NCBI RefSeq assembly: GCF_017104565.1
Contig: NZ_JAAGPD010000077.1
Location: forward strand, 1-33,061
Direction: 5' to 3'
Source of the DNA: Paraburkholderia sp. Tr-20389
GTDB taxonomy: Bacteria > Pseudomonadota > Gammaproteobacteria > Burkholderiales > Burkholderiaceae
Length of the DNA stretch: 33,061 bases
Shown here: piece after piece, positions 1 through 8,869 of the stretch
How the letters are laid out: each line of letters opens with the position of its first letter
How positions within the stretch are numbered: the first letter of the stretch is position 1
Notes under the pieces: model-generated
What the model was told of the DNA's origin: nothing
Databases searched by the model: none
The model's input: only the letters and a program-made list of their open reading frames with translations
Program-made: the position numbers and the translations under genes

Positions 1-170
1 TGCCGAGCGGTCCGCCGTTCCCGCACGATTGCCCGCGTTGGAGCGATCCGCCGTCGACGCGCGGTTGCCCGCGTTGCCGCGATCGGCTGTTGCCGCGCGG
101 TTGCCCGCATTAGCGCGATCGGCCGTGCCTGCTCGATTGCCCGCACCTGCGCCGGCGCGGTCAGCCGTGT
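1..170. repeat. 36-bp tandem repeat inside the DUF3300 gene
   Basis: The core GATTGCCCGC/GGTTGCCCGC recurs at 27, 63, 99 and 135, an exact 36-bp period, and continues towards the window edge. It encodes the 12-residue repeat NRAxTADRxNAG on the minus strand. Copies differ mainly at the codon after T/S positions. The period is a multiple of three, so copy-number change would keep the frame. It is protein-coding and not a CRISPR array. Confidence 0.85.
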
Positions 171-1131
171 TGGCGCGCCCGCCCGCGGCGGTATCGCGAC
201 CACGAAAATCGGACCGTCCTTCGGCACCGGGCACATTGCGCGAATACTTCTCGCGACTCGCGTTGTCGCGGTAAGCGACGCCCTGGCGATGGCTTCCGTC
301 GTGCTGCCAGCGACCGCCCTGGACCTTGGTCCGGTCGAAGTTGCGATCGATGTTGGCGGCCTTGTTGACGTTGATGTTGACGTCGCCACCGCCCCAGTTG
401 CAGTTGCTGAAGATCGCGCCCGCGGCAGCGAGCCCGACACCCCACGCGAAGCCCGTCGCCAGCGCCGCGCCCGGATAATAGGCGGGAGGCGGCGGCCAGT
501 AAGTGGGCGGATAGGCCGGATAGCTCCACGCGCCATACACGACGGTTGGGTTATAGGCGGGCACGTAGATCACCTGCGGATTCGCAGGCTCGACCTTGAT
601 GATCGTCTCGCCGCCGGCGGGCGGTTGCTCGACGACCACGTTCTGCTGCTCGTTCGATTTCAGGTTGCCGGAATCCTTCGCGCGCGCCCGCAACCGCTGC
701 ACGGCGGCGAACACGTCTTTCTGCTGCGCGAGAAACGCGTCGCCGAGCTTCTGCGTCCAGTCGAGCTTGTCGTTCATCGGCTCCAGGATTTGCGGGAACG
801 CGACCATCGATTTGACGCTGACATCCCAAGGCTCTTTTTCGACGGCCTTCACGGCGGCATCGCCTTTCACGTTCGGATTAGCTTTGACCCAGCGCGCCGC
901 GTGCACGATTTCCAGCGGATAGGTCGATGCCATCAGCACTTGCGACAACACGGAATCGGGATATAGCGCGATGGGTGCGACGAGCGCCTCGATCTCTTCC
1001 GGCTTGAACGGTTCGGCGGGTGGCGCAGCCGGTTGCTGGGTTTGAGCGCGTGCGCTGCCGACACCCAACATGAGCGCGACGAGCAACCACAGGCACAGCG
1101 TGTAGACCCGTTGCAGATTGCGTGTGGACAT
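1..1131 (-). CDS. DUF3300 domain-containing secreted protein (3' end outside window)
   Basis: The frame is open from an ATG at 1131 to the window edge (377 codons, no stop), so the C-terminus is missing. The start has an AAGGAG site six bases upstream. Residues 1-29 form a signal peptide ending in SARA, so the protein should be exported. Residues of about 41-240 match my recollection of DUF3300 (EEIEALVAPIALYPDSVLSQ, then PQVIYVPAYNP), followed by a Tyr/Pro-rich stretch and a short Gly/Ala-rich hydrophobic segment (222-241). From about residue 318 the chain becomes a low-complexity 12-residue repeat of the form NRAxTADRxNAG. The family has no assigned biochemical function that I know of. An envelope role is an inference from the signal peptide. 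The family call is secure; the function is unknown. Confidence 0.85.
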   Translation of the reverse strand, partial: MSTRNLQRVYTLCLWLLVALMLGVGSARAQTQQPAAPPAEPFKPEEIEALVAPIALYPDSVLSQVLMASTYPLEIVHAARWVKANPNVKGDAAVKAVEKEPWDVSVKSMVAFPQILEPMNDKLDWTQKLGDAFLAQQKDVFAAVQRLRARAKDSGNLKSNEQQNVVVEQPPAGGETIIKVEPANPQVIYVPAYNPTVVYGAWSYPAYPPTYWPPPPAYYPGAALATGFAWGVGLAAAGAIFSNCNWGGGDVNINVNKAANIDRNFDRTKVQGGRWQHDGSHRQGVAYRDNASREKYSRNVPGAEGRSDFRGRDTAAGGRANTADRAGAGAGNRAGTADRANAGNRAATADRGNAGNRASTADRSNAGNRAGTADRSA

Positions 1132-1484: not shown

Positions 1485-2711
1485 TCACTTGCCTGCGTTG
1501 AGTTTCATCGTGGAGGCGCGTGCGTCGTCGGCCGTCATCTTCGCGCCGCCCGCGTGATACCCGTTCGAATAGAGCAGGAACGCCATGATGTCCGCGTAAT
1601 CCTGATCCTTCATCTTGCCGGGCTTGTCCGCGGGCATGTTCGTCGACAGGTAGGTGAACACGCCGCCTATCGTCAGATGCGCATTCGATGCCGGCGCGAA
1701 CGCGGGCCCTTGCAGCGCAGGCGCCGTCACGCCTTGCAACTGTGCGCCGTGGCATTTCGCGCACGCGGCCGAATAGAGCTGCTTGCCATGCGTCGCCTGC
1801 GCCTGATCGAATGACGGCGCGCCGCCTGCGTCTGCAGCGACTTTGACGAAGCGGCCTGCATGGTCCGCGTTCGCTGTTGCGAGCAACGCATGTTGCGCAA
1901 CCGCGCGAGATGCAGCAGGACCGTCGCGATAGCGCGCGGCGTCGTCGTTGGCGGTGGCGTCGAGCGCGTGCGCGGGCATCGCCCAGTCGTGCGTCAACGC
2001 GACGAGGCGGCCATCGCCCGACAGCTTGTCGAGCGCTGCGTCGATCCGTTGCCGCATCCCTGCCGTGCGCGGACCGAATGCGAACACGAGTTGCCAGTCC
2101 GCATAAGGCGAGTGCGCGGCAGCAACCGTGAAGTGACGTTGCGGATGCGCGCGCTGATAGGCGACGACGGCCGGATACCAGACGATCGCGCGCTGCGCCT
2201 GCCCCTTCGCGACGGCCTCGACGGTCAACGCCGACGTGTTCTCCAGATGAAGCTTCACGCTCGGCTGCTGCACGGCGATCAGTTGCGCGGGGCTCGCGTA
2301 GGTCGCCGCGACGGTGTTCTTCGCTGCGTCCTGCGGATTGGCATCGGGCGCTTCGATGCTCACGTAGCCCGCGCGCAGATAGCCGCGCGAGAACTGCAGC
2401 TTGCTGTTGGAGCCGTCGGCGATCGTCGAGCGCGGAAAGCCTGCGATCACGTCGCACTCACGCGCGAGTGTCTTGTCGAGTTCCTTCAGCGAGACGCCGT
2501 CGTCGTCGCCATCGCCGATGCCGTGTTTGACGATCGTCGCAGCGATGCCCGCCTGCGCAAACGCATCGCGCGCGACAGCTTCATCCAGCGATGCAGACGG
2601 ACTGCCAGGAAAAGTACAGACCTTCACGGCCGCCGTCGCGTGAACGGACGTGAGCGCGACACAGGCAGCAAGCACGCTTGCCGCAGGAATACGATTGAGA
2701 GAGTGGTTCAT
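1485..2711 (-). CDS. MxaJ/XoxJ-like periplasmic binding domain fused to cytochrome c
   Basis: The 408-residue protein probably accepts electrons from the neighbouring quinoprotein dehydrogenase in the periplasm. Residues 1-28 are a signal peptide. Residues of about 29-285 resemble the quinoprotein-associated periplasmic substrate-binding family (MxaJ/XoxJ type). Residues of about 300-385 are a class I cytochrome c with haem motif CAKCH at 317-321 and a likely axial methionine at 359 (STNMPADKPG). In known methylotroph clusters these are usually two separate proteins, J and G. The gene starts 71 bp after the dehydrogenase stop on the same strand, so co-transcription is likely. I chose the ATG at 2711 because the signal peptide follows at once. 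The start has only a weak ribosome site. The haem domain is certain; the J-like assignment is from family memory. Confidence 0.85.
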   Translation of the reverse strand: MNHSLNRIPAASVLAACVALTSVHATAAVKVCTFPGSPSASLDEAVARDAFAQAGIAATIVKHGIGDGDDDGVSLKELDKTLARECDVIAGFPRSTIADGSNSKLQFSRGYLRAGYVSIEAPDANPQDAAKNTVAATYASPAQLIAVQQPSVKLHLENTSALTVEAVAKGQAQRAIVWYPAVVAYQRAHPQRHFTVAAAHSPYADWQLVFAFGPRTAGMRQRIDAALDKLSGDGRLVALTHDWAMPAHALDATANDDAARYRDGPAASRAVAQHALLATANADHAGRFVKVAADAGGAPSFDQAQATHGKQLYSAACAKCHGAQLQGVTAPALQGPAFAPASNAHLTIGGVFTYLSTNMPADKPGKMKDQDYADIMAFLLYSNGYHAGGAKMTADDARASTMKLNAGK

Positions 2712-2782: not shown

Positions 2783-4510
2783 TCACGAATGGTTGAGCGC
2801 GAACACGTACAGCGTTCCGCCGCGCGGCACCTTGTCGGCGGCCTTGGCCATCGGGCCGCCCCAGATCGGATTCGCGCCGCCGTAGCCCGCCAGCACCGCG
2901 ACATATTCCTTGCCGTCGATCTCGAACACGGACGGCTGTGCGATGATGCCGCTCGCGAGCTTCGGGCTTTGCCACAACACCTTGCCGGTCGAGACGTCGA
3001 ACGCGTAGAGGTGTCCATCGAGCGAGCCGCTGAACGCGAGGCCGCCCGCCGTCGTCGCTACGCCGCCGTTCCACGGCAGCTTGCTCCAGTGGCTCCAGAT
3101 CTGCTTGCCCGTGTTGACGTCGATGGCTTGCAGCTCACCATAGCCCTTGCTGCCGGGCTCGGGCTTGATCTCGAAGCCTTCGCCGAGATACGGCAGACCT
3201 TCCATGTACGTGACCGATTTACCCGACAGCGACATGCATGCATGCAAAGTGGGGATGATCGCGATGTGCTTGTCCGCGTCGTAGGAAACGGACCACCAGT
3301 TCTTGCCGCCGAGGAAGCTCGGGCAGGTCTCGATCGTCGTGCCCGTCTTCGGATACTTCGATTCGTCCTGCACGGGCTTGCCGTCCGCCGTGTAGCCGGT
3401 GACGGAGGTGGCCTTCACGAACGGGCGCGCATAGATGAGCTTGCCGTTGCTGCGGTCGATTGCGTGGAAATAGCCGTTGCGGTCCGCGTGAATGATCGCG
3501 TCATAGTCCTTGCCGTCGTACTTGATGTTCGCGAGCACGGGCGTGTTGACGCCGTCGTAGTCCCACGTGTCGTGACGCGTGTACTGGTAATGCCATTTGA
3601 GGTTGCCCGTTTTCGGATCGAGCGCGAGCAGCGAGTCCGAATAGAGGTTGTCGCCGGGACGAAGATCGGCGAGCCACGGTCCTGGATTGCCGACGCCCCA
3701 ATAGAGCGTCTTGCTGTCCGGGTCATATGTGCCCGTCAGCCACGCCGGTGCGCCGCCATGTTCCTGCATACCGTCGGGCCACGTATTGCCGTTCGGCTCC
3801 TTCGCGCCGGGCACGGTGTAGCGCTTCCATTGCACGTTGCCGTTCTCGGGGTCGAGCGCCGCGATGAAGCCGCGCGCACCATACTCACCGCCCGAACTGC
3901 CGACCACGACCGCGCCGTCGAGTGCGAGCGGCGCAAGCGAGAACGCGTAGCCCGTGGCCGGCTCGAACATCGCCTTCTTCCAGACCACAGCGCCGCTTTG
4001 CGCGTCGAGCGCGACCACTTCGCCGTTCAGCATCGCGATATACACGTTCTTGCCGTACACCGCGACACCGCGATTCACGACATCGCAACAGGCATTCTTG
4101 AAGGCTTCGGCGCCGAGCTTCGGTTCGTACTTCCACAGTTGCTTGCCGGTGGCTCCATCGAATGCATAGACGTTGTCCTTGGGCGTCGACACGAACAGGT
4201 AGCGGCCGTTGATGATGGGCGTCGCTTCGAAGCCTTGCTGAAGGTCCGCGGGAAATTTGTACGCCCATGCCTGCTTCAGGTTCTTCACGTTCGACGTGTC
4301 GATCTGCTTGAGCGGCGAATGCGCCTGACCGTTATACGTACGGTAATACGTGAGCCAGCCGGGATCGCTTTGCGCCGACGTGAGCCGGTCGTAGGTCACG
4401 GGAGGATAGTCGGCCGCGGCGGTTGCCGTCGCGGGCTTCAGACTGATTGCCGCCACGACGCCCGCGACGAGCATCGCGAGCCGCGTGGCCGAAGCCGGAC
4501 TTGTCTTCAT
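2783..4510 (-). CDS. PQQ-dependent alcohol dehydrogenase, lanthanide type
   Basis: This 575-residue periplasmic quinoprotein should oxidise an alcohol to an aldehyde and pass electrons to cytochrome c. A signal peptide (residues 1-32) precedes an eight-bladed PQQ propeller with repeated W-motifs (LDAQSGAVVWK, STGKVLWQSP). The vicinal disulfide is Cys141-Cys142 in ACCDVVNRG. Metal ligands appear as Glu209 (SSGGEYGARG) and Asn275 (GVGNPGPW). WDYDG at 316-320 supplies catalytic Asp317 plus Asp319, two residues on. That second Asp marks XoxF/ExaF/PedH enzymes that use lanthanides, while calcium-type MxaF has Ala there. The ATG has an AGGAGA site, and a sigma-54 promoter lies about 100 bp upstream. 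The substrate is not determinable; methanol, ethanol or other primary alcohols are possible. Confidence 0.93.
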   Translation of the reverse strand: MKTSPASATRLAMLVAGVVAAISLKPATATAAADYPPVTYDRLTSAQSDPGWLTYYRTYNGQAHSPLKQIDTSNVKNLKQAWAYKFPADLQQGFEATPIINGRYLFVSTPKDNVYAFDGATGKQLWKYEPKLGAEAFKNACCDVVNRGVAVYGKNVYIAMLNGEVVALDAQSGAVVWKKAMFEPATGYAFSLAPLALDGAVVVGSSGGEYGARGFIAALDPENGNVQWKRYTVPGAKEPNGNTWPDGMQEHGGAPAWLTGTYDPDSKTLYWGVGNPGPWLADLRPGDNLYSDSLLALDPKTGNLKWHYQYTRHDTWDYDGVNTPVLANIKYDGKDYDAIIHADRNGYFHAIDRSNGKLIYARPFVKATSVTGYTADGKPVQDESKYPKTGTTIETCPSFLGGKNWWSVSYDADKHIAIIPTLHACMSLSGKSVTYMEGLPYLGEGFEIKPEPGSKGYGELQAIDVNTGKQIWSHWSKLPWNGGVATTAGGLAFSGSLDGHLYAFDVSTGKVLWQSPKLASGIIAQPSVFEIDGKEYVAVLAGYGGANPIWGGPMAKAADKVPRGGTLYVFALNHS

Positions 4511-4611
4511 CGTTGTCTCCTGTCCCATCGAAGATGGTTGTGGGTGAGTTATCGGTGCGACGCCTGTCAGCAGCGCTACGTCGGCGTGTGTGAAGGCGGC
4601 GGGCTCGTAAA

Positions 4612-4627
4612 GGCAAGTCGCATGCCA
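4612..4627 (-). promoter_or_regulatory. Sigma-54 (-24/-12) promoter of the alcohol dehydrogenase
   Basis: On the minus strand the site reads TGGCATG-CGAC-TTGCC. It matches TGGCACG-N4-TTGCW at all invariant bases, with GG and GC ten bases apart. The expected transcript start is near 4602, giving a leader of about 90 nt before the dehydrogenase ATG at 4510. An enhancer-binding activator is encoded nearby (5821-7809). Confidence 0.75.
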
Positions 4628-4816
4628 TTGTTTGGCTATCCTTGCGAATCGGCGTGTGTGCAGTCGAATCGATGTGCATGCGCTGCAATTGCGCATTGGG
4701 AGGGCACGTGTGGCGTGTTGCATCGTGGAGCAGTGGACAGTACGCCTGTTGCCCTATGTGACACCACGACATGTGACGCGCCTCGATATCGCGCGGCACG
4801 CATGTCATGGGTTCGA

Positions 4817-4832
4817 TGGCACGCTTCTCGCA
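4817..4832 (+). promoter_or_regulatory. Sigma-54 (-24/-12) promoter of the small unknown gene
   Basis: The site reads TGGCACG-CTTC-TCGCA. The -24 half is a perfect consensus. The -12 half differs at one base (C for T) and keeps the invariant GC at the correct ten-base distance from GG. Transcription would begin near 4844, about 64 nt before the ATG at 4908. Confidence 0.65.
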
Positions 4833-4907
4833 CATTGCATGGCGACGTAGAGCACGCGCGATACGCATGCTTCTTCGTCGTATCGTCAATCAGCGAGTGC
4901 GAAAGTC

Positions 4908-5147
4908 ATGAACAGTTTGCGGGCGATGGTCGAACGATGGCTGGCGCATATGCCGCCGTGCGAAGTCAGCTTTGCCAGATTCGGATGCGAAGGCGGCGGA
5001 CGCCGCTGTCATGTGCGTGTGGACGTGCATCGCCCCGAAGGCGATCTCGCGATTCACTTCTTTCGGCATTGCGACGGTATGTGGCGTGTGTTTCCGCCTG
5101 CGGCCGTGCCGGTCGCGATGCGTGTCTTCACGACGCTCGGCGACTGA
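4908..5147 (+). CDS. Small unknown protein inside the PQQ/alcohol dehydrogenase cluster
   Basis: I do not recognise this 79-residue protein. It has balanced composition, no signal peptide and no membrane segment, so it is probably cytoplasmic. It contains four cysteines (18, 27, 34, 55) and several His/Arg residues (RRCHVRVDVHRPEGD, IHFFRHCDG). Three signals argue that the gene is real: a near-consensus sigma-54 promoter 75 bp upstream, a strong hairpin 12 bp after the stop, and its position between pqqD and the dehydrogenase. The ribosome site is weak (GCGAAAG). It should be expressed together with the quinoprotein genes. A role in metal or cofactor handling or in regulation is speculation. 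Confidence 0.6.
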   Translation: MNSLRAMVERWLAHMPPCEVSFARFGCEGGGRRCHVRVDVHRPEGDLAIHFFRHCDGMWRVFPPAAVPVAMRVFTTLGD

Positions 5148-5159
5148 GGTTCGCCGTAT

Positions 5160-5191
5160 CCGGATATGAGCCTGTCCTCAGGTTCATCCGG
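5160..5191. terminator. Hairpin between convergent small gene and pqqD
   Basis: Outer arms CCGGAT/ATCCGG and inner arms GAGCCTG/CAGGTTC (one G-T pair on the plus RNA) enclose a TCCT loop. It lies 12 bp after the plus-strand small gene and 18 bp after pqqD on the other strand, so it can separate the two convergent transcripts. There is no long T-run. Confidence 0.6.
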
Positions 5192-5209
5192 CGTCGTTGT
5201 GTGCGTCTC

Positions 5210-5491
5210 TCAATCGACCCATCCGCGCTGCCGCGCGTGATCGATGAACTGGTACACGTCCGTCGCGAGACCGGACGCATTGAAGAGCGTTTCGAGTTCG
5301 CCGATGATGTCGTCGAGTTCGCGTGTGCCGTCGCAACGCGTGAGAATTTCTCCCGCACTCGGGTTGAGTTTCACCGTGCCCTCCGGATACAGCAGCACAT
5401 ACGCGCTCTGCACGGGCTCCCACTGAAGCCGGAACAGTTCACGTAGCCTCGGGCGCTCGCTCGCACCGGCGTTCGCAGACGTCGGAATCAT
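5210..5491 (-). CDS. pqqD: PqqD, PQQ precursor peptide chaperone
   Basis: PqqD binds the PqqA peptide and presents it to the radical-SAM enzyme PqqE in PQQ biosynthesis. The 93-residue product carries the usual family body from RPRLRELFRLQWEPVQ to the C-terminal HARQRGWVD, with the PEGTVKLNPSAGEIL segment in the middle. Starting at the ATG at 5491 gives the usual family length. A TTG at 5563 would add 24 residues but would place a strong RNA stem-loop inside the coding region, so I rejected it. The gene lies 79 bp after pqqA on the same strand. No pqqB, pqqC or pqqE follows, so the rest of the pathway must be encoded elsewhere or be missing. The ribosome site is weak. Confidence 0.92.
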   Translation of the reverse strand: MIPTSANAGASERPRLRELFRLQWEPVQSAYVLLYPEGTVKLNPSAGEILTRCDGTRELDDIIGELETLFNASGLATDVYQFIDHARQRGWVD

Positions 5492-5522
5492 GGCGGTGGG
5501 TCTCGTCGGGTGGTATGTATGC

Positions 5523-5554
5523 GCCGTCGCACGTTGCGGGCAACGCGCGGCGGC
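5523..5554 (-). promoter_or_regulatory. Stem-loop between pqqA and pqqD
   Basis: CGTTGC/GCAACG around GG extends to a 15-bp stem with one mismatch and one G-U pair in the minus-strand RNA. It begins 16 bp after the pqqA stop. In other pqq operons a hairpin after pqqA raises pqqA transcript over the downstream genes. The same role here is an inference. Confidence 0.55.
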
Positions 5555-5570
5555 GGGCTTCAACGTGAGG

Positions 5571-5645
5571 TCAGCGGTTGGCGATGTACATCGTGATTTC
5601 GAAACCGAAACGCAGATCCGTATAAGCGGGCGTCGTCCACTGCAT
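5571..5645 (-). CDS. pqqA: PqqA, PQQ precursor peptide
   Basis: This 24-residue peptide is the substrate for PQQ. Its glutamate and tyrosine side chains are cross-linked by PqqE and become the cofactor. The required pair is present with the invariant spacing, Glu16 and Tyr20, in GFEITMY. The length and the start [16 protein letters not shown] match known PqqA peptides. The ATG has a CAGGAGA site seven bases upstream. A sigma-54 promoter at 5706-5721 would give a leader of about 50 nt. The gene is followed by a stem-loop and pqqD, and is preceded on the same strand by the AcoR-like activator gene. Confidence 0.95.
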
Positions 5646-5705
5646 GGCTGTCTCCTGGATGGTTTGCCGAAGAACCGCGTATGAGCCGCGGTCCGGGCGA
5701 TTTAA

Positions 5706-5721
5706 CGCAAGCTCCATGCCG
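5706..5721 (-). promoter_or_regulatory. Sigma-54 (-24/-12) promoter of pqqA-pqqD
   Basis: On the minus strand the site reads CGGCATG-GAGC-TTGCG, with the invariant GG and GC ten bases apart and an intact TTGC. Transcription would start near 5696, about 50 nt before pqqA. It sits in the 175-bp gap after the activator gene. Confidence 0.7.
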
Positions 5722-5785
5722 GAAAAGATTCGAAGGATATGCGAGAGATTCTCAGTGAACAGGGTGTCCAGATTCGGAGCACAGG

Positions 5786-5812
5786 TGTTGCAAAACTCAA
5801 CAGCGCGCAACA
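5786..5812. promoter_or_regulatory. Candidate upstream activator site (TGTTGC dyad)
   Basis: TGTTGC (5786-5791) and GCAACA (5807-5812) are inverted copies 15 bp apart, 65-105 bp upstream of the pqqA -24/-12 promoter, the usual position for an enhancer-binding activator. The same hexamer occurs in the other two intergenic regions of the cluster (4716, 4747, 7836). Binding is inferred. Confidence 0.4.
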
Positions 5813-5820
5813 GCACAACG

Positions 5821-7809
5821 CTAGTCGTTGCCACGCGACTCCGCGCCCGCGCACAGCGAAGGCATCTTGCGATACACCGTGTTGCGCGAGATCCCGAGCG
5901 CCCGCGCAGCCGCTGACACATTGCCGTTGTGCCGCGCGACGGCCGCCGCAATCGCGGACGCCTGCACGTCCTGCAGCCGCGTGCCCTGTAGCGGCAACGG
6001 CGAGCCCGCCGGTGCAGGAGCGCGCGCTGCGCTGCTGCGCAGATCGTCGAAGAAGTCTTCGGGCAGGTGCTCGCGTCTGATTTCGCCGTCGTCGTCGATC
6101 ATCGCGGCCGCCGTGCGCAGCAGATTGCACAGTTGCCGGAAGTTGCCGGGCCACGCGCATTGCTCGAACAGCGTCATCACGTCGTCGGCGACGCTGAGCG
6201 GCGGCGCACCTTCCGTTTCGTCGCACGGCACCAGTTGCAGCATCCGCTCGATCACGGCGGCGAGATCGGTGCGGTCGCGCAGCGGCGGAAGTTTGACGAC
6301 GAGACCGTTCAAACGGTAATACAGGTCCTCGCGGAACCGGTTCTGCACGATCATCTCGCGCAAATTGCGGTGCGTCGCGCAAATGACGGCGATATCGACG
6401 GGAACGGATTTGCTGGAGCCGAGCGGATCGACGACGCGCTCCTGCAGCACGCGCAGCAGACGCACCTGCAACGGATACGGCATGTCGCCGATCTCGTCGA
6501 GAAACAGTGTGCCGCCGTTGGCTTGCAGCAGCTTGCCCACCGCGCCTTTGCGGCGCGCGCCCGTAAAGGCGCCTTCCTCATAGCCGAACAGCTCCGACTC
6601 GATCAGATTTTCCGGTATCGACGCGCAATTGACCGCGATGAACGGTCCCGCGCGGCGCGGCGAATCGTTGTGGATGGCCTGTGCGAGCAGTTCCTTGCCG
6701 GTGCCCGTTTCGCCAGTGATCAGAATCGGAATGTCCTTGCCGATCACCTTGCGCACCTTGGCGATGACGGCGGAAATTTGCGGATCGCCCGTGTTGAGGC
6801 AATCGAGCCGCGATGGCGCAGTGGCGGAAACGGGGGCCTTCGCCGGCTGGGCGCGCGCTGCGGCGGGGCGCGTGCTGACGACTGCGTCGCTGGGCCAAGA
6901 GCCTTCGCTGGCGAGCGTCGTCCGGCGAAACTCGACGCTTGCGCAAACGACCGTGCCATTGTTCAGATCGAGCGTAATGTGATGGCCCTGGCTCGCACGC
7001 AGGCGCTCGATCAGGTGCGGCGTGGTCAGCCCGAACAGCGACGACAGTGTGTGTGCGCGCATCGCGGCAAGCGGCAGCCCGACCTGAAACTGCGCGCTGC
7101 GATTCGCGGACAGAAAGCGGCCGTCGCACGTGAAGGCCATGATGCCTTCCATCAGCGTGCCGAGAAACTCCGGCCGGCCATGAAATGCGATCTGCAGCGT
7201 GTTGCGGAAGGTGTTTGTAAACAGATGGTTTTCGATCATCTGCACGGACATCTTCGCGAGCGCCATCGTGTGTTGATGGTAGCTGCGGTGATCGCCCGTC
7301 ACGTCGAGCACGCCGACCAGATCGCCATACGGATCGAGAATCGGCACGCTGGAGCATGTGAGGAAGCGATTGGCGGCCAGATAGTGTTGATCGCCGTGCA
7401 CGACGGTTGCGGTGCGCTCGGCGATCGCAGTGCCGATTGCGTTCGTGCCTTGCCGCTCTTCGGCCCAGTTGGCGCCTGCCTTGAGCGCGACCTTCTCGGC
7501 GCGCCGCAGAAAATCGTCGTCGCCGATCGAATGAAGAATCAGGCCTTCGGCATCCGTCAGCACGATCATGCTTTGCGTGTTCGCGATCTGCTCGCGCAGC
7601 GTTTCCATCACAGGCGTCGCGTGAGCGCACAGCACGCGGTTCTGTTCGAGCTTCATCCGCAGCTCGCCGTGCGTGAGCACGTCGTAGTCGGGGCACATCG
7701 ACGCACTGAGTCCGAACGTTTCCGACCTCTCGTGCGCTTTCTGGATCGACGGAGTGAGCCAGCCGCTCTCTCGGCCTGTCAGTGATCCGATGGTCTGGGC
7801 TTCGCGCAT
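5821..7809 (-). CDS. Sigma-54-dependent activator, AcoR type (GAF/PAS, AAA+, Fis HTH)
   Basis: This 662-residue enhancer-binding protein uses ATP to open sigma-54 promoters. An N-terminal GAF-like sensor region (about 60-195, with [12 protein letters not shown] and FLTCSSVPI) is typical of AcoR-type regulators of alcohol and acetoin metabolism. A PAS-like region follows at about 205-300. The AAA+ domain has Walker A GETGTGKE (366-373), the sigma-54 contact loop GAFTGA (413-418) and Walker B LFLDEIGD (435-442). A Fis helix-turn-helix occupies 612-650. I chose the ATG at 7809 for its GGAGGAGACA site; an in-frame start further upstream lacks one. Three -24/-12 promoters lie in the next 3.2 kb and the gene directly precedes pqqA, so control of the quinoprotein genes is the natural inference. 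The signal is unknown. Confidence 0.93.
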
Positions 7810-7945
7810 TGTCTCCTCCGGTATCGTGCCGGTCGTGTTGCCGGCATCGTGGAGTGAGTTCAAAAGCAAGACCCGCGCCATTGGTCTGCCTGTTAGCTAC
7901 ACGAAAGGATGCGTGGCGGCAGGCACATTCGGCGAGAATCGACAC

Positions 7946-8869
7946 ATGAGCACGCGCGACACTGCACATCGAACGATCACCTGCGACGGTCACACGGTTG
8001 CCTATACCGTGCATGGCGCGCCTGACGGCGAGCCCGTCGTCGTCTTGCATGGCGGACCCGGAAGCGGCAGCAACTCAGGCGCGTTACGTCTCTTCGATCT
8101 CGCTCGCTTTCGTGTGGTGATGGTGGATCAACGCGGCACGGGTGCATCGACGCCGCGTGGAAGCGTTCGCCATAACGACACACGCCATCTGATCCGCGAT
8201 CTCGAAGCGATACGTGCGCAACTGGGCATTGCGCGTTGGGGCGTGGTCGGCGGCTCGTGGGGCGCGGCGCTCGCGCTTGCTTATGTGGGAACGCATCACG
8301 CGTCGGTGAGCGGTGTGGTGTTGCGCGGCCTCTTTCTCACGACGCAGCGTGAAGTGCGGCGCCTGTTCGTGACGTCGCGCTCGCGTGCGCCGAATGCGTG
8401 GCACGAGCTGATGCAGGCGACACGATGCGAGCGAGCATCGTCTCTGCCATTTGCCTGCATGCGGTCGATGCGGACGCGAACGCATCCACGCGCCGATGCT
8501 GTCGCTGCTGCATGGCGTGCCTACGAGAACGCGATATTGACGCAGTCATCGTCGCGTTCAAGGCCGAATCGCCGCGCCGACGCGCCGACAGCGAAGTACC
8601 GTATTCAGGCTCACTATCTGATGCACGATTGCTGGCTCGGCGAGCGGCGCTTGATGACGCTCGCGAAGCGCGCCGCCGCAGCGGGTGTCGCGATACATGC
8701 GCTACATGGCGCACGCGATCCCGTGTGTCCGCCCGACAATCTGCATCGGTTGATGCGCGCGGTGCCTGCCGTGCAGGGCAGATTCGTCGATGCGGGGCAT
8801 CTGGCGTCGGAGCCTCGTCTTGCGGAAGCCCTTGTCGACGCCATCGCGGCAGCGTTCCTCGCCCGGTAA
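7946..8869 (+). CDS. Proline iminopeptidase-like alpha/beta hydrolase (S33)
   Basis: The 307-residue protein has the hallmarks of prolyl aminopeptidases, which release N-terminal proline from peptides in the cytoplasm. The oxyanion motif HGGPGSG is at 35-41 and DQRGTGAS at 61-68. The nucleophile is Ser104 in GGSWGA. The triad is completed by Asp258 (ARDPV) and His285 (AGHLAS). There is no signal peptide. The gene is transcribed away from the sigma-54 activator with 136 bp between starts, and ends 10 bp from the convergent RHH gene. The ATG at 7946 has a weak GGCGAGA site. Related S33 hydrolases act on esters or amides, so substrate identity is moderate. Confidence 0.85.
   Translation: MSTRDTAHRTITCDGHTVAYTVHGAPDGEPVVVLHGGPGSGSNSGALRLFDLARFRVVMVDQRGTGASTPRGSVRHNDTRHLIRDLEAIRAQLGIARWGVVGGSWGAALALAYVGTHHASVSGVVLRGLFLTTQREVRRLFVTSRSRAPNAWHELMQATRCERASSLPFACMRSMRTRTHPRADAVAAAWRAYENAILTQSSSRSRPNRRADAPTAKYRIQAHYLMHDCWLGERRLMTLAKRAAAAGVAIHALHGARDPVCPPDNLHRLMRAVPAVQGRFVDAGHLASEPRLAEALVDAIAAAFLAR

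Follow-up and report, generated by a model that had tools for sequence, protein, structure and literature searches.

Alcohol oxidation by a quinoprotein dehydrogenase under sigma-54 control was reported for Azospirillum in 2017 (title cited in PMC12826043), with a regulator of the LuxR type as partner. BmoR of Thauera butanivorans is an alcohol-responsive sigma-54 activator with a distant upstream activating sequence (UAS); it drives the promoter of an alkane monooxygenase, and the bmoR promoter is described as constitutive (PMC8899819, PMC6366067). In the ped/exa system of Pseudomonas, a lanthanide-type dehydrogenase, an aldehyde dehydrogenase and genes for pyrroloquinoline quinone (PQQ) are co-regulated by two-component (PedS2/PedR2) and LuxR-type control and AgmR. 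The sole sigma-54 regulator mentioned in the accessible text, CbrB, is distal to the cluster, and P. putida KT2440 is described there as lacking LutH, which serves M. extorquens as TonB receptor for lanthanides (PMC12997753). Methyloversatilis has a PQQ dehydrogenase beside a binding protein and a cytochrome c, Mdh2-Mdh2J-Mdh2G (PMC5023235), and MDH2 of Burkholderiales is mentioned in PMC7356819. Here we describe a cluster of Paraburkholderia sp. Tr-20389 that unites a PQQ dehydrogenase gene with pqqA, pqqD and a sigma-54 activator gene. The window, the whole stretch of 33,061 nucleotides that was analyzed, is one contig (C75 in our labels) of a 9.0-Mb genome in 129 contigs. Judged from its sequence, it is very probably a reduced local copy of an enhancer-read sigma-54 regulon for periplasmic alcohol oxidation.

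As in Azospirillum, a quinoprotein alcohol dehydrogenase is combined with a predicted sigma-54 promoter; in place of a LuxR-type partner, this locus encodes an activator with GAF, AAA+ and FIS domains, has palindromic enhancers at several promoters including that of pqqA, and carries a site before the activator's own gene. BmoR, compared by description, would be alike as an alcohol-responsive activator with a distant UAS and differs in its target and in its constitutive promoter. The Pseudomonas cluster resembles the present one in the co-regulation, here a predicted one, of a lanthanide-type dehydrogenase with aldehyde dehydrogenase and PQQ genes, and differs in the type of control. Among open-access titles and the beginnings of abstracts, most subscription journals being outside this scope, no sigma-54 lanthanide regulon like that of the window was found; no search was aimed at small RNAs (sRNAs). 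New above all are the shared enhancer, the regulator site, the lanthanide-type enzyme and a predicted sRNA layer.

The initial annotation had placed three -24/-12 promoters with an invariant GG-N10-GC core directly before a dehydrogenase gene, a gene for a small protein and pqqA. All three are present with the core intact: TGGCATGCGACTTGCC at 4612..4627 (minus strand), 117 bp before the ATG of the dehydrogenase (2783..4510, minus); TGGCACGCTTCTCGCA at 4817..4832 (plus), 91 bp before a small open reading frame (ORF; 4908..5147, plus); and CGGCATGGAGCTTGCG at 5706..5721 (minus), 76 bp before pqqA (5571..5645, minus), which is followed by pqqD (5210..5491, minus). A fourth site, TGGCGCGGGTCTTGCT at 7865..7880 (minus), 71 bp before the ATG of the regulator gene, is an addition to these three. 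The sigma-54 consensus provides TGGCAYR and YTGC as context, which the window sites follow with small departures in two of the first three, TCGC for TTGC and, in the pqqA site, C for the first T. Single -24/-12 sites mean little, because the strict pattern TGGCAYRNNNNYYGC had 110 matches in the genome and the reversed pattern 170; the significance of single sites was therefore dropped as an argument. Three sites of the window score at least 7 of 8 (4612, 4817 and 7865), all of them in the cluster, at an expectation of 0.8 per 33 kb under a first-order null. With a score of 6, the pqqA site is one of five in the window, the other four lying elsewhere; the null expectation for scores of at least 6 is 7.4.

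Conservation was studied in related loci. At E <= 1e-200, an orthologue of the dehydrogenase is encoded by 107 of 398 genomes in the family, from 7 of 25 genera. Seventy-four loci, the window and 73 loci fetched from Paraburkholderia, Caballeronia, Burkholderia and Trinickia, were scored for the best site with at least 6 of 8 positions, GG and GC being required, within 300 bp before the dehydrogenase and 150 bp before pqqA. The counts leave out L206 and L210, where the small-family match stands at the end of the locus, as well as two aldehyde dehydrogenase matches (of 18) and two regulator matches (of 65) with an upstream region cut by the locus end. A site preceded the dehydrogenase in 73 of 74 loci, at a threshold of 6 as well as of 7; in the exception, L197, it is located 375 bp upstream, as seen in the matching locus L149. 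Sites were present before pqqA in 66/66 loci, before aldehyde dehydrogenase genes in 16/16 scorable loci, before TonB receptor genes in 17/23, before the small gene in 6/6 (of 8) and before the regulator in 59/63, of which 57 scored at least 7. The gene following the dehydrogenase had a site in just 2/73 places, and pqqD had none of its own in 64 loci. This conservation is far above shuffles and random windows: at a score of at least 6, first-order shuffles gave 1-4%, random windows of the same loci 1-6% and, the TonB receptor set excepted, reversed sequences 0-6%. It is selective for the element, with a mean information of 1.4-1.55 bits in the site columns against 0.1-0.6 bits in the flanks. 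The plus-strand promoter is kept while the gene behind it differs, being a TonB receptor, an aldehyde dehydrogenase, TonB-ExbBD or the small gene. In L148-L151, pqqA lies on the opposite side of the dehydrogenase and its site has accompanied it.

These observations bear on the possibility that the sites are chance or ancestral resemblances and that the genes are in fact controlled by sigma-70 and a two-component system. Pseudomonas has such a control with PedS2/PedR2 and AgmR (PMC12997753), and the single sites are not beyond chance genome-wide. Against this stand the selective conservation of the site columns, the co-movement with pqqA, the enhancer pairs described below and the adjoining sigma-54 activator; we consider a sigma-70 control very improbable.

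A shared enhancer is predicted upstream of the structural promoters. The hexamers GTGTTG, TGTTGC and GTTGCA were prominent upstream of the dehydrogenase, pqqA and TonB receptor genes, not of the regulator, and refinement yielded a 21-bp palindrome, GGTGTTgCA-N3-TGcAACACC, usually present in two copies. Between the divergent dehydrogenase and small-gene promoters, predicted copies are located at 4714..4734 (17.9 bits) and, 31 bp from the first, at 4745..4765 (13.4 bits); upstream of pqqA they are found at 5763..5783 (14.3 bits) and, 21 bp further, at 5784..5804 (22.8 bits). These four copies are the four best matches in the 33-kb window, the reversed sequence of which reaches 10.2 bits. The main matrix was trained on the regions of the dehydrogenase, pqqA, TonB receptor and aldehyde dehydrogenase genes, with the window and L190 excluded, and was applied to regions with a scored -24/-12 site, within 230 bp upstream of that site. 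At a minimum of 9 bits, the enhancer was present in 73/73 dehydrogenase, 62/66 pqqA, 17/17 TonB receptor and 16/16 aldehyde dehydrogenase regions, and in 6/6 small-gene regions, which overlap those of the dehydrogenase. Counts of the main matrix on its own training sets are not independent, hence cross-trained matrices were used. The matrix trained on pqqA recovered 72/73 dehydrogenase regions (shuffles 1/219), 17/17 TonB receptor regions (0/51) and 16/16 aldehyde dehydrogenase regions (2/48), and the matrix trained on the dehydrogenase recovered 62/66 pqqA regions (4/198). Two copies of at least 6 bits were detected in 67/73 dehydrogenase, 60/66 pqqA, 15/17 TonB receptor, 16/16 aldehyde dehydrogenase and 6/6 small-gene regions. 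The commonest spacings between the centres, 31-32 bp for the dehydrogenase, 21 bp for pqqA, 32 bp for the TonB receptor and 31 or 40-41 bp for the aldehyde dehydrogenase, correspond roughly to two, three or four turns of the helix. In the remaining genome, 92 of the 108 strict sigma-54-like sites outside the window were covered, and one had an enhancer of at least 9 bits within 260 bp (C35:18228, L284). With 13.5 bits it was rejected as a further enhancer site, as 1.5% of random 260-mers match and one such case is about what chance provides; the gene behind it reads Crp/Fnr-like from its translation, without a family search.

The regulator gene (5821..7809, minus) had been announced as an AcoR-type sigma-54 activator with intact GAFTGA beside the sites. 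Its location, the GAFTGA motif and the order of the GAF, AAA+ and FIS helix-turn-helix domains (Pfam, translation) hold; the family name is confirmed by no curated model. Among the 25 of 28 NCBIfam matches listed, none reached its cut-off (DhaR with 283.5 bits against 551) and none was an AcoR model, thus AcoR type is a description rather than a membership. Close relatives of the regulator (E <= 1e-150) are encoded by 34 of the 250 genomes searched in the order, from 25 of 121 genera. Of 29 such loci (L085-L113), 7 encode a PQQ dehydrogenase within about 1.5 kb of the relative, 5 an aldehyde dehydrogenase and 2 a pqq gene, 14 in all; the other 15 encode none of these three kinds. The dependence of the cluster on RpoN and on this local activator is what we infer from the arrangement. 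Conceivably, the promoters depend on sigma-54 and the enhancer serves mainly another activator, with the local regulator controlling something else. The genome encodes a candidate, the paralogue at C37:61352-63262 (L187), which is 52% identical, possesses GAF, AAA+ and FIS domains and has an enhancer-like match of 12.6 bits just before its own gene; the local regulator gene is mostly without an enhancer. In 65 of 74 loci, however, no more than about 9.2 kb separate the regulator from the dehydrogenase, through several rearrangements, which is best explained by a pair of regulator and target, and a foreign reader of the enhancer is considered quite unlikely.

The dehydrogenase belongs to the PQQ-dependent methanol/ethanol family (TIGR03075, 568.9 bits at a cut-off of 480.05). 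A second aspartate two residues after the catalytic one marks lanthanide enzymes, and the protein contains it in HDTWDYDGVN. Its best sequence matches in the PDB were 6zcw and 6zcv, which we take to be PedH. WDYDG was conserved in 72 of 72 readable fetched orthologues: 37 carry HDTWDYDGVN, and in the other 35 the H is replaced by N or G; L262, the 73rd, is a truncated sequence and was not counted. The enzyme is thus lanthanide-type by its second aspartate and would use a lanthanide. Alternatively, it may be a calcium enzyme, with a TonB receptor unrelated to lanthanides (for siderophore, heme or PQQ) and a regulon for ordinary alcohols only. The use of lanthanides is backed by sequence only, the window is without a TonB receptor, and the receptor on contig C54 (66% identical to that of L171) matches siderophore, heme and PqqU models below their cut-offs. 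The D-x-D motif of all readable orthologues is, however, shared with 6zcw and 6zcv (HDGWDFDGVN), whereas S or T takes the second position in 1flg, 1kv9 and 1kb0, which makes a calcium enzyme unlikely. The closest dehydrogenase among the plasmid records searched was that of P. phymatum STM815 (97.9% identical). A second PQQ dehydrogenase of the genome, C19:17342, is 37% identical, scores above the cut-off of the family model and also has WDYDG; the enhancer was not found in its locus, L116.

The gene order, read leftwards from 7.8 kb, is activator, pqqA, pqqD, small ORF, dehydrogenase and a gene that begins 71 bp after the dehydrogenase and encodes a substrate-binding-like (MoxJ-like) domain fused to a c-type cytochrome with CAKCH (1485..2711, minus; TIGR03871 weak with 19 bits at a cut-off of 212, Cytochrome_CBB3 above cut-off). 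Compared by gene arrangement, this corresponds to Mdh2J and Mdh2G, which are separate in Methyloversatilis and fused here (PMC5023235). The genes for pqqA (24 amino acids, TIGR02107) and pqqD (TIGR03859) score above cut-off. Beside the regulator, a prolyl-aminopeptidase-like hydrolase is encoded at 7946-8869 (plus), below the model cut-off; a gene annotated pip takes the same place in P. largidicola, and a comparable ORF separates TonB receptor and regulator in L174. NRA-TADR-type motifs recur in the C-terminal part of the protein encoded first on the minus strand (window 1-400). An Rfam scan of the window yielded no match at the gathering score.

The small ORF encodes a protein of 79 amino acids from a Burkholderiaceae family for which neither Pfam nor NCBIfam has a model. 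The initial annotation had included it in the circuit. Its promoter is kept wherever the gene could be scored, which speaks for this; its position appears peripheral, as the promoter drives other genes in relatives. The family has 12 copies in the genome (E <= 0.001) and is present in 140 of 299 genomes of the family Burkholderiaceae. Copies elsewhere in the genome are found on C18, C23, C29, C58, C32, C77, C19, C22, C25 and C6 (L061-L071); genome G051 has 18 copies, and others are carried by Cupriavidus plasmids. The predicted structure is a helix and four strands (pLDDT 70.8), for which Foldseek found no match with E <= 0.001 (best E 0.16); a PDB sequence match was not obtained, and one of six relatives matched a glycolipid-binding model with E 0.072. 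The protein was left unnamed for want of family, PDB or Foldseek support. That the ORF stands outside the circuit, as a leftover where a TonB receptor or aldehyde dehydrogenase gene was lost, would agree with the other genes behind the plus-strand promoter in most relatives, with the location of one of the 12 copies at this place, and with a leader lacking the GGAGACA discussed below. On the other hand, the protein is conserved (83% identical in L190; 26 invariant columns in 6 sequences), the copies linked to the locus cluster in a short-alignment tree (support 89/89, under the tool's own star threshold) and the promoter is retained. We regard a leftover as the less probable case, though one to be reckoned with; the small gene is probably a real but peripheral member from a multi-copy family.

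Comparison with relatives suggests that the window contains a reduced form of a larger regulon with pqqABCDE, TonB receptor and aldehyde dehydrogenase. In L229 and L234 (Burkholderia) and L224 and L254 (Trinickia), pqqABCDE, regulator, TonB receptor, dehydrogenase and fused cytochrome gene stand together, and the Trinickia loci have an aldehyde dehydrogenase with its own site in addition. The cluster of the window retains just pqqA and pqqD. Elsewhere in the genome, pqqC is located at C54:16347, alongside pqqD, PqqE (above cut-off) and a PqqB-like ORF. The TonB receptor gene on the same contig, C54:20528, showed no such -24/-12 site in a relaxed scan of L186. A second intact pqqA gene for 24 residues is situated at C54:3454 (L264); TGGTACGACAGTTGCA is present and the enhancer was not found in L264. 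The family model is only 21 positions long, and the pqqA of an insect-associated region, about 100 bp, has been called a fragment (PMC9088363). This region of 38-40 genes in Burkholderiaceae contains PQQ genes (PMC9088363, PMC7397029), formylmethanofuran dehydrogenase genes and a sigma-54 Fis regulator (PMC9088363), and we infer that C54 represents it. It resembles the present system in these three components; unlike its single block, the comparable genes (pqqBCDE and an fhcB-like gene) are here on C54, outside the window. The fhcB-like gene at C54:9748 matches the model of formylmethanofuran dehydrogenase subunit B with 186 bits (E 6.5e-55, below the cut-off of 328) and is preceded by CGGCACGGACCTTGCT and an enhancer of 15.8 bits. 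Its relatives occur in 36 of 200 genomes of the family, and 30 of 30 loci, including its own, have a site of 7/8 near the extrapolated start in a scan without its own control. Some genomes may couple the formation of formaldehyde to its removal. Near the start of a second fhcB-like gene (45%; C19:975392-975425, L026), a sigma-54 site with full score, TGGCACATGAGTTGCT, is present without the enhancer.

An additional, post-transcriptional layer is suggested by the ribosome-binding sites. The genome encodes five members of the sRNA family RF02278 above the family cut-off and two weaker ones. The regulator site, GGAGGAGACA at 7810..7819 (minus), is a perfect complement of 9-11 nt to the seeds of all seven sRNAs, and the sites of the dehydrogenase (4514..4521, minus) and pqqA (5649..5656, minus), both AGGAGACA, are perfectly complementary over 7-9 nt to all seven. 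For pqqD, the small gene and the cytochrome gene, the longest complement anywhere in the sRNA was 4-7 nt. In the related loci, GGAGACA preceded the ATG of the regulator in 67/89, of pqqA in 68/104 and of the dehydrogenase in 63/76 cases (65-83%), of the TonB receptor in 10/19 and of the aldehyde dehydrogenase in 9/19, compared with 34/383 (9%) for other ATGs preceded by GGAG; the tally counts ATGs, and one gene may count repeatedly. In a preprint (PMC11722255), the FIS-family sigma-54 regulator BP2158 is described as directly repressed by the sRNA S17, with a sigma-54 promoter sequence located some 75 bp ahead of its ATG; in addition, three FIS regulators of B. cenocepacia are said to match an S17-type seed target site, as for the related bdhR1 (RF02278). 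The window regulator resembles BP2158 and BCAM2365 as a FIS sigma-54 regulator with a leader matching the RF02278-type seed; the likeness is one of description, and the regulon of BP2158 is stated as unknown (PMC11722255). That three ribosome-binding sites share this complementarity to RF02278 sRNAs points to a possible brake after transcription.

The evidence may be combined to a sigma-54 regulon for alcohol oxidation spread over the four genera sampled. The activator would sense the alcohol or its aldehyde, bind the two palindromes upstream of each structural promoter, probably as cooperating dimers, and contact the sigma-54 polymerase at the -24/-12 sites with GAFTGA. This would fire the dehydrogenase together with the fused binding-protein/cytochrome gene, pqqA-pqqD and the small gene. 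The -24/-12 site of the activator gene, mostly without an enhancer, suggests positive feedback or the input of another activator. In relatives, the same promoter type would drive a TonB-dependent receptor (perhaps for metal, metallophore or PQQ), aldehyde dehydrogenase, TonB-ExbBD and the pqqBCDE genes downstream of pqqA, and the sigma-54 site at the fhcB-like gene, with an enhancer in some genomes including this one, may link formaldehyde oxidation. RF02278 sRNAs may act as a brake at the shared ribosome-binding sites. The co-induction of enzyme, electron acceptor and cofactor precursor by sigma-54 and a dedicated activator, as proposed initially, finds support in the conserved promoters, the shared enhancer and the co-movement of promoter and pqqA; the circuit is well supported and larger than had been described. 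The widest version, one self-amplifying sigma-54 regulon of Burkholderiaceae for lanthanide-type alcohol oxidation that covers metal or cofactor uptake at the outer membrane, PQQ synthesis, aldehyde removal and formaldehyde oxidation, with paired palindromic enhancers and with RF02278 'toxic' sRNAs blocking the leaders of activator, dehydrogenase and PqqA, is put forward tentatively, with its chances somewhat below even.

Several observations weigh against these readings. The 74 loci are related and some genomes contribute two or three, so that the counts are not independent; for this reason the co-movement of the site with pqqA is a stronger argument than the locus counts. Six of 23 TonB receptor genes are without a site, three of them (L224, L231, L258) behind a small gene with a site, and the reversed control of this set reached 17% at a score of at least 6, though 0% at 7 or more. 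The enhancer matrix by itself is not rare enough: the first-order null gave 0.37 matches of at least 13 bits per 33 kb and once four in 200 trials. Before the regulator, the enhancer was found at 9 bits or more in 6/59 regions (shuffled 3/59) and with the cross-trained matrices in 7/59 and 11/59 (shuffles 1/177 and 6/177); as this promoter mostly lacks the enhancer, autoregulation is no more than a candidate reading. Eleven pqqA pairs are spaced by 35 bp, off the helical repeat, and a few others also misfit. At the fhcB-like loci, an enhancer of at least 12 bits was present in 11 of 30 only, again in a scan without its own control. GGAGACA doubles as a good Shine-Dalgarno sequence, and the use of lanthanides hangs on a single residue pair.

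For this large group of plant- and insect-associated bacteria, the cluster would offer a testable regulatory logic of rare-earth-type alcohol oxidation. The exact enhancer sequence can be used to scan for more members of the regulon, and the ribosome-binding sites are candidate targets for the RF02278 sRNA family. The dehydrogenase locus may also be linked to genes for formaldehyde oxidation in a region for which a role as insect symbiosis island has been discussed.

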